A stretch of DNA of 64,000 bases. It comes from Desulfobacteraceae bacterium (lineage in GTDB: Bacteria > Desulfobacterota > Desulfobacteria > Desulfobacterales > Desulfosalsimonadaceae). The position numbers and the translations under genes were made by a program. The first letter of the stretch is position 1. The number at the start of each line of letters is the position of its first letter. Shown here one piece after another: positions 61,156 to 64,000 of this stretch. The notes below the pieces were generated by a model. That model did not search any database. It was not told the DNA's origin and was given only the letters and a program-made list of their open reading frames with translations. Location of the stretch: positions 1 through 64,000 of the forward strand of contig QZJS01000053.1 in assembly GCA_003597945.1 (NCBI GenBank). The letters are read 5' to 3'.

Positions 61156-61809
61156 ATGTCGAAAAAAATGAAACCCGTTTATCTGTATACGCGTTATGAG
61201 CGATCCTGGCACTGGCTCCAGATGGCGCTGATCTTCATTCTGTTGATCACCGGCCTTGAAGTGCATGGCGTTTTCACCCTGTTCGGATTCAAGCGGGCCG
61301 TTGCCATACACAACTTTACGGGAATTTCGTGGCTGATCGCCTTTGCGTTTTTTATCTTCTGGCTGTTTACCACCGGGGAATGGAAACAGTATATCCCTAC
61401 CACCAAAAAACTGTTTGCCGTTATGCTTTATTATGGATACGGCATCTTCAAAGGCCAGCCGCACCCGGTGCCCAAGCGCAAGGAAGCCAAACATAACCCG
61501 CTGCAGCGCCTGACCTACCTTGGTCTGGCGGCCTTGCTGCTGCCGCTGCAAATGATCAGCGGACTGCTTTACTGGACTTACAACTCCTGGCCGGCCGACT
61601 GGCCCTTTTTCAACGCTCTGACCCTGGGAATGGTAGCATTTGTACATATGGCCCTGGCATTTGCCATTCTTGGTTTCATTATCGTCCATGTGTATATGAC
61701 CACAACCGGGCACACCTTGTTTGCGCACATAAAAAGCATGATCACGGGATGGGAGGAAATTGAGGAAGACGAGCCCATCGAGGCATGGGAATACAAAAAA
61801 CACGCTTGA
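61156..61809 (+). CDS. Membrane cytochrome b (cytochrome b/b6 or cytochrome b561-like)
   Basis: MSKKMKPVYLYTRYERSWHWLQMALIFILLITGLEVH; multi-TM with conserved His. Confidence 0.83.
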   Translation: MSKKMKPVYLYTRYERSWHWLQMALIFILLITGLEVHGVFTLFGFKRAVAIHNFTGISWLIAFAFFIFWLFTTGEWKQYIPTTKKLFAVMLYYGYGIFKGQPHPVPKRKEAKHNPLQRLTYLGLAALLLPLQMISGLLYWTYNSWPADWPFFNALTLGMVAFVHMALAFAILGFIIVHVYMTTTGHTLFAHIKSMITGWEEIEEDEPIEAWEYKKHA

Positions 61810-61873
61810 CAAGTTAAAAATATCCTGTTAGCGATTGATTCGTAAATAAAAATTCTTGTGTGCGGTCGGTAAA

Positions 61874-61957
61874 ATGAATTATAGAGCCAATTTCAACATC
61901 CTGATACTTATTCTCATCCTCATCGTCGCTGTAGGCGGCGGCGGGGGCGGGTGTTGA
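61874..61957 (+). CDS. ilv leader peptide, MNYRANFNILILILILIVAVGGGGGGC
   Basis: 27-codon ORF with 5 Ile, 4 Leu and 2 Val codons within 12 consecutive codons, directly upstream of a terminator and ilvD. Confidence 0.88.
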   Translation: MNYRANFNILILILILIVAVGGGGGGC

Positions 61958-62032
61958 TAATGGCCTGATTTAAAACAGATAAAATCAAAAAAGACCGTTA
62001 TCAGCACCAAAGCTGATAACGGTCTTTTTTTT
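61893..62032 (+). promoter_or_regulatory. Transcription attenuator for ilvD(-ilvB)
   Basis: 1:2 pairing TCAACATCC(61893-61901)/GGGTGTTGA(61949-61957); 2:3 pairing TGTTGATAATGG(61952-61963)/CCGTTATCAGCA(61995-62006); 3:4 terminator below. Confidence 0.85.
61993..62032 (+). terminator. Attenuator terminator
   Basis: GACCGTTATCAGC-ACCAAA-GCTGATAACGGTC followed by T8. Confidence 0.93.
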
Positions 62033-62049
62033 CCATGGAGGGTCAGATC

Positions 62050-63717
62050 ATGCATAGCGACAAGGCCAAAAAAGGGATAGAACGCGCGCCGCACCGGTCT
62101 TTGCTCAAGGCCATCGGATACACGGACGAAGAAATCGGGCGCCCCCTGGTCGGCATCGCCAATTCGGTCAACAGCATCGTGCCGGGGCATGTGCACCTGG
62201 ACAGGATCACCGAAGCGGTCAAGGCCGGGATTTATATGGCCGGCGGGACCCCCGTTGAGTTCGGGGTCATCGGCGTTTGCGACGGCATTGCCATGAATCA
62301 TGTGGGCATGAAGTATTCCCTGGGCAGCCGCGAGCTGATCGCCGATTCGGTGGAAGTCATGGCAACGGCCCACGCCTTTGACGCCATGGTGATGGTTCCC
62401 AACTGCGACAAAATCGTGCCCGGCATGCTCATGGCCGCGGCCCGGCTGGATCTGCCGGCGATTTTCATCAGCGGCGGTCCCATGCTGGCCGGCCGGCACC
62501 CCTTTGATCCGACACGGAAAGTGGACCTGATATCGGTTTTCGAGGCCGTTGGCGCGGTGCGGGCCGGAAAAATGGCCGAGGAAGAACTGCTGGCCATCGA
62601 GGATGCTGCCTGCCCCACCTGCGGGTCCTGTTCCGGCATGTTTACCGCCAATTCCATGAACTGCCTGACCGAGGTTATCGGCCTGGGCCTTCCCGGCAAC
62701 GGGACGATCCCGGCGGTGATGTCGGCCCGATTGCGCCTGGCAAAACTTGCCGGCATGAAAATCATGGAACTGCTGGAAAAAAAGATTACCCCCCGGTCCA
62801 TCCTCACGCCGGCGGCGTTTGAAAACGCCCTGACCGTGGATATGGCCCTGGGGTGTTCCACCAACACGGTGCTGCATCTGATGGCCCTGGCCCATGAGGC
62901 CGGAACGCCCATCGCCCTGGACCTGATCAACGAGATCAGCGGGCGCACGCCCCATCTCTGCTCGTTGAGCCCGGGGGGCAGGCACCACATCGAGGATCTT
63001 CATAACGCCGGCGGACTGCCGGCCCTGATGAAGATCCTGCTGGAGAAAGGATTGCTTCATGGTGACGCCATAACCGTCACCGCCGGCACTGTACGCGATA
63101 ATGTCGCGTCGGCAAGGGTCCTTGATCCGGACGTGATCCGTCCCTTAGACAATCCGTATCACGAAAAAGGCGGCCTGGCTGTATTGTTCGGCAATCTCGC
63201 GCCCAACGGTTGCGTGGTCAAACAGTCCGCGGTGGTGGAACAGATGATGCGGCACCAGGGACCGGCAAGGGTTTTTGATTCCGAGGAAGACGCGAGCAAA
63301 GCCATCCTCGGGGGCAAAATCAATAAAGGCGACGTGGTGGTGATCCGCTATGAAGGCCCCATGGGCGGGCCGGGCATGCGGGAAATGCTGACCCCGACTT
63401 CGTCGATTGCGGGCATGGGACTTGACGCCCATGTGGCTCTGATCACGGACGGCCGTTTCTCCGGAGGAACCCGGGGAGCCGCCATCGGCCACGTGTCCCC
63501 CGAGGCCATGCAGCAGGGACCCATTGCCGCGGTCCGGGAAGGCGATATGATCGCCATTGATATTCCGGATAAAAAGATTACTCTGATGGTTGATGACGCC
63601 GAGATCAAAACGCGGCTGACCACATGGCAAAAACCCGCGCCCCGCATCACAAAGGGCTATATGGCCCGGTATGCCCGGATGGTTTCATCCGCGGACAAGG
63701 GCGCGGTCATGGAATAA
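62050..63717 (+). CDS. ilvD: Dihydroxy-acid dehydratase
   Basis: [58 protein letters not shown] 62050 preceded by GGAGGG. Confidence 0.96.
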
Positions 63718-63810
63718 AACAGGAATCATGAAAAACATCAATCACCCAAACCGTATCCGGCCGCTGCAATCTCCTGCTGGTCGGAAGCGATATTCTAAGG
63801 AAGAGTGAAT

Positions 63811-64000
63811 ATGAGCAAAATGACGGGAGCGCAGATCCTGCTGCGCATGTTAAAGGAAGAAGGGGTGGATACCATTTTCGGATATCCCGGGGGCGCGGTG
63901 CTCGATATTTATGATGAGCTTTACCGCTCCGATATGCGGCACATCCTGGTACGCCACGAACAGGGCGCCATTCACGCGGCCGACGGCTATGCACGGGTAA
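63811..64000 (+). CDS. ilvB: Acetolactate synthase large subunit (partial, runs off right edge)
   Basis: [63 protein letters not shown]. Confidence 0.93.

Follow-up and report, generated by a model that had tools for sequence, protein, structure and literature searches.

A probable ribosome-mediated transcription attenuator upstream of the ilvD-ilvB-ilvN-ilvC-cimA-leuA operon and its relatives across an order of sulfate-reducer-type bacteria

The region upstream of ilvD in the 64,000-nucleotide stretch of DNA analyzed here (the window) very probably encodes a ribosome-mediated transcription attenuator like those of the E. coli his, leu and ilv operons, as judged from its sequence. A first-pass annotation had proposed this classical logic, and the leader ORF, the exclusive pairings, their conservation and their covariation all fit it; leader translation, ribosome stalling, termination and amino acid-dependent read-through are the steps that we infer from these features. 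The elements of the region are as follows.

61874-61957, forward strand: leader peptide ORF, MNYRANFNILILILILIVAVGGGGGGC followed by the stop codon, 27 aa; putative regulatory Ile/Leu run at codons 9-18
61893-61901, forward strand: segment 1, TCAACATCC, within the leader ORF, where the Ile/Leu run begins; pairs with 61949-61957
61949-61963, forward strand: segment 2, GGGTGTTGATAATGG, overlapping the leader stop TGA
61987-62032, forward strand: intrinsic terminator 3:4, a 19-bp stem including an A:U flank, with T8 at 62025-62032
61995-62008, forward strand: segment 3, CCGTTATCAGCACC, shared by the antiterminator (as its 3' arm) and the terminator (as its 5' arm)
62012-62024, forward strand: segment 4, pairing with 61993-62005 in the terminator core
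62037-62042, forward strand: Shine-Dalgarno sequence of ilvD, GGAGGG
62050-63717, forward strand: ilvD, dihydroxy-acid dehydratase, first structural gene, above the TIGR00110 cut-off
63805-64000, forward strand: start of ilvB; the operon runs past the window end into ilvN, ilvC, cimA and leuA

The 27-aa ORF with a near-continuous Ile/Leu/Val run that had been called by eye is present at 61874-61957, and read directly its densest stretch is Ile, Leu or Val at 10 of 10 codons. Among 4000 dinucleotide shuffles of the region 61810-62034, none produced an ORF with at least 9 such codons per 10, and none exceeded 8. Pairing of the leader start region with the Shine-Dalgarno partner has a predicted energy of −4.2 kcal/mol. 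This signal is also modest in relatives, where the leader median is −3.7 versus −0.9 for random upstream sequence, and it is weaker than that of ilvD itself in relatives (median −8.8 kcal/mol). A Gly6 tract (GGCGGCGGCGGGGGCGGG) sets this leader apart from those of its relatives and is associated with a strong extra hairpin within the ORF (61913-61957). A scan of 61600-62300 found no sigma-70 consensus promoter.

Behind the terminator lie ilvD at 62050 and ilvB at 63805, in the order first described; the ilvD start is at 62050 and not at the mechanical ORF start of 62035. Curated NCBIfam models name six genes in the operon, ilvD-ilvB-ilvN-ilvC-cimA-leuA, which is partly outside the window. Given this gene set, the Ile, Leu and Val codons of the leader match all of the operon products.

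The three pairings 1:2, 2:3 and 3:4 are mutually exclusive, and formation of the antiterminator 2:3 excludes the terminator. The lengths proposed earlier for these pairings needed some correction. The 1:2 protector pairing is 9 bp as claimed (61893-61901 with 61949-61957), and is longer in many relatives; the family copy of segment 1 is ATTATCAACC. The antiterminator pairing stands, but it spans 14 bp (GGTGTTGATAATGG with CCGTTATCAGCACC) and not 12. The 13-bp terminator stem and its T8 were correctly read; the 13 bp are a G/C-containing core (61993-62005 with 62012-62024), which the A:U flank extends to 19 bp. Segment 2 indeed overlaps the leader stop codon, TGA at 61955-61957. The predicted energies are −11.3 kcal/mol for the 1:2 duplex, −21.0 for the 2:3 hairpin and −28.1 for the 3:4 terminator, and the region 61860-62050 folds with a z-score of −5.6.

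Staged folding with alternative ribosome positions gave 2:3 or 3:4 accordingly. With a ribosome at codons 9-20 and segment 3 fully transcribed, folding predicts the 2:3 hairpin; with a ribosome at the stop codon, 3:4 alone can form; and without translation 1:2 and 3:4 form together. When charged Ile- and Leu-tRNA are scarce, a ribosome would thus stall in the Ile/Leu run and cover segment 1, freeing segment 2 for the antiterminator and allowing RNA polymerase to continue into ilvD-ilvB-ilvN-ilvC-cimA-leuA. When charged tRNA is plentiful, the ribosome would reach the stop codon and cover segment 2, and the terminator would form. If the leader is left untranslated, 1:2 would form and termination would be the default. 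Antitermination would have to be kinetic, because the terminator is the more stable structure once segment 4 has been made, as is also the case in classical attenuators. Under an assumed ribosome footprint, only a stall that places the A-site at about codons 9-15 would mask segment 1, and Ile and Leu are therefore predicted to count more than Val here; by this geometry, the Val codons at positions 18 and 20 may matter little in the present genome.

Relatives of IlvD were gathered by protein search, the leader playing no part in their choice. The same arrangement is carried by 37 ilvD loci, including all 30 loci from one protein search, and the carriers include Desulfatitalea alkaliphila, Desulfobacula and Desulfamplus. 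At these loci an Ile/Leu/Val-rich leader of about 27-35 aa ends 77-188 nt upstream of ilvD, with its stop codon at or near segment 2, usually GTTGATAATGG; CCGTTATCAGC with its complement, and the T-run, are present as well. The relatives keep xGTTGATAATGG, which overlaps the leader stop or lies just past it. Among the leaders, residues differ greatly in order and identity, and the Ile/Leu/Val enrichment is constant. Codon choice in the 37 leaders favors ATT, CTT, GTC and GTA; ilvD itself favors ATC, CTG and GTG. Perhaps this bias keeps the run unstructured or draws on particular tRNAs. For IlvD relatives at greater distance, from Clostridia, Spirochaetes and other groups, no such leader was found.

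The first-pass annotation had named loss of the leader ORF or of the 2:3 complementarity in relatives, and compensatory changes in homologous upstream regions, as the observations that would bear on its proposal. Both the ORF and the pairing are kept at the 37 aligned loci, where 2:3 is paired in 94.6% of cells and compensatory changes occur in 5 of its 13 pairs. The comparison with shuffled alignments ignores relatedness, and the resulting numbers are not probabilities: across the 37 sequences, the double-change cells of 2:3 number 15, where shuffling gives 3.9 on average, and 0 of 500 shuffles reach the observed value on any measure. The terminator 3:4 covaries too in this alignment, more weakly than 2:3. 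In a set of 123 loci whose segments were located by motif, kinship again being ignored, the double-change cells number 77 for 2:3 (maximum of 52 in 300 shuffles), 28 for 3:4 (shuffle maximum 14) and 51 for 1:2 (shuffle maximum 47), the last being weak covariation. A portion of these changes, those from G-C to U-A within one clade, may represent few events. The antiterminator nevertheless appears to be under selection, since its double changes exceed those of the shuffles even though 2:3 is not the minimum-energy fold. The support for 1:2 comes mainly from conserved complementarity in the compared sequences.

A covariance model of the element (R1) matched 224 of the order's 248 genomes; among the 151 of high quality, 143 had a match. 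We checked ten R1-negative genomes of the order, and in most of them either ilvD/ilvB are missing or a contig end cuts the operon. Four nearly complete genomes (G087, G077, G127 and G161) returned no hit for ilvD or ilvB, which suggests branched-chain amino acid auxotrophy or an unusual route; the incomplete genome G219 likewise gave no match. In another four (G136, G205, G147 and G244) the ilv genes lie at contig ends, and in G089 ilvD comes after cimA. Of 248 genomes sampled across the phylum as a whole, R1 matched 22, those outside the order mostly weakly. Inspection outside the order found Ile/Leu/Val leaders before cimA, cimA-leuA, leuA or ilvB in 11 genomes, with 3 discarded. Where R1 matched a second time on the opposite strand, in this genome and others, it had read the symmetric hairpin backwards, and these matches were set aside, as were the weak matches L189, L190, L192, L287, L288, L291 and L292, which are terminators with no convincing leader ORF. 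One locus (L285, G144:C1:4106800-4110400) holds segments 2-4 twice: the additional copy, whose leader seems broken, is found 1.8 kb upstream of the ilvD leader and precedes an ATPase-like ORF, as if the leader had been duplicated with an insertion.

This distribution bears on a simpler reading, in which the hairpin belongs to the upstream cytochrome gene, as its ordinary intergenic terminator or a weak constitutive attenuator, and is preceded by a chance hydrophobic ORF. The upstream gene does end only 65 nt before the leader, and a terminator in this position would also end the upstream transcript. However, the leader, segment 2 and the 2:3 covariation occur order-wide and accompany ilv, cimA and leu genes, not the upstream gene, and the shuffles yield no chance ORF like the leader. 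We consider this reading very improbable.

The codons of the leaders follow the genes behind them. In leaders before a lone cimA, a gene of the isoleucine branch, Ile makes up 77% of the Ile/Leu/Val codons (n = 6), two of these leaders also holding a short Leu run; before cimA-leuA, Leu makes up 47% (n = 7), most with a long Leu run. Both classes are small samples that come in part from a single family (f123). Leaders of ilvD-first operons are mixed (38/32/30, n = 37). That leader codon content tracks the operon points to codon sensing by a ribosome, and not to a function of the peptide or to an RNA aptamer. Were the peptide itself the agent, as a small membrane protein or a nascent-chain arrest peptide that acts independently of codon starvation, its marked hydrophobicity would be explained, but the residues vary widely in order and identity as the Ile/Leu/Val enrichment persists, and the Ile-dominated cimA leaders and the Leu runs before cimA-leuA fit codon sensing instead of a fixed arrest motif. 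We therefore regard an acting peptide as highly unlikely.

Leaders of this family also occur at other genes. Two extra ilvB paralogs (L295, G069:C45, and L253, G107:C18), 51% and 65% identical to the IlvB of the window, have their own Ile-dominated leaders apart from the main ilvD operon. A further leader of this family, again dominated by Ile, lies on the minus strand of G069:C5:55000-61200 (L248), ahead of a cupin-type regulator and an acyl-CoA synthetase. Among NCBIfam models the synthetase matches MbcS best (502 bits, under the cut-off of 850), and the locus may represent an isoleucine-controlled salvage route from 2-methylbutyrate. We lean cautiously toward a single homologous attenuator module that has spread phylum-wide to ilvD, ilvB, cimA, cimA-leuA, leuA and perhaps a branched-chain acyl-CoA synthetase, its codons being rewritten for each operon. 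Common descent of all copies, over convergence, is suggested by the CCGTTATCAG/CTGATAACGG core that their sequences share.

A third reading places a riboswitch or a T-box, that is, an RNA-only or tRNA-binding sensor, on the same terminator, with the ORF incidental. The layout of operon and terminator is typical of such elements. An Rfam search of the window at loose thresholds, however, found no family at its threshold; the sub-threshold matches fall on the terminator hairpin alone, the best being Thr_leader at 23.9 bits against a gathering threshold of 55, and no T-box is among the matches up to E = 1. Conservation resides in the amino acids of the ORF and in segments 1-4, with no separate aptamer, and the amino acid content of the leader follows the operon. 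A sensor of this kind has very little probability in our estimation. Rfam also found no T-box at the leaderless ilvD loci of clostridial, spirochaete and other relatives, so that an exchange of leader for T-box at ilvD is not supported.

The ribosome-mediated attenuator resembles several described systems. As in the E. coli ilvGMEDA, ilvBN, leuABCD and his leaders, a short ORF rich in the amino acids of the pathway is followed by segments 1-4 with the alternatives 1:2, 2:3 and 3:4, with segment 2 at the leader stop and the terminator before the first structural gene. It differs from them in its phylum, in its operon (ilvD-ilvB-ilvN-ilvC-cimA-leuA) and in having no Rfam leader model above threshold. 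The T-box of Firmicutes ilv/leu operons serves the same pathway through a terminator/antiterminator switch, but senses uncharged tRNA directly, independently of translation. The Corynebacterium ilvBNC leader, or ilvB-II uORF motif (PMC10272879, PMC11857589), also has an Ile/Leu/Val-rich uORF and a terminator with antiterminator before ilv genes; compared by description only, it differs in being actinobacterial with ilvB first. The ilv attenuators of Staphylococcus aureus and Listeria (PMC5794164, PMC5864092) likewise place a leader peptide before branched-chain amino acid biosynthesis genes, but, again compared by description only, belong to Firmicutes and act together with CodY.

The literature searched, which covered few subscription-journal papers and not the main comparative study of proteobacterial attenuators, yielded no description of such a leader for Deltaproteobacteria, Desulfo- taxa or Desulfobacterota. 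The leaders that it does describe are from Corynebacterium, Staphylococcus, Listeria and Actinobacteria, and one wide-ranging survey of terminators mentions leader peptides for Proteobacteria generally.

The mechanism proposed here is a textbook one; what appears new is a taxonomically broad element in an order of sulfate-reducer-type bacteria. It provides a control element for branched-chain amino acid synthesis in a large group of anaerobes for which neither the literature searched nor Rfam describes a leader, and it comes with a ready covariance model. With leaders that are recoded in front of the cimA, leuA and ilv operons, the leader codons could predict the amino acid that an operon serves.
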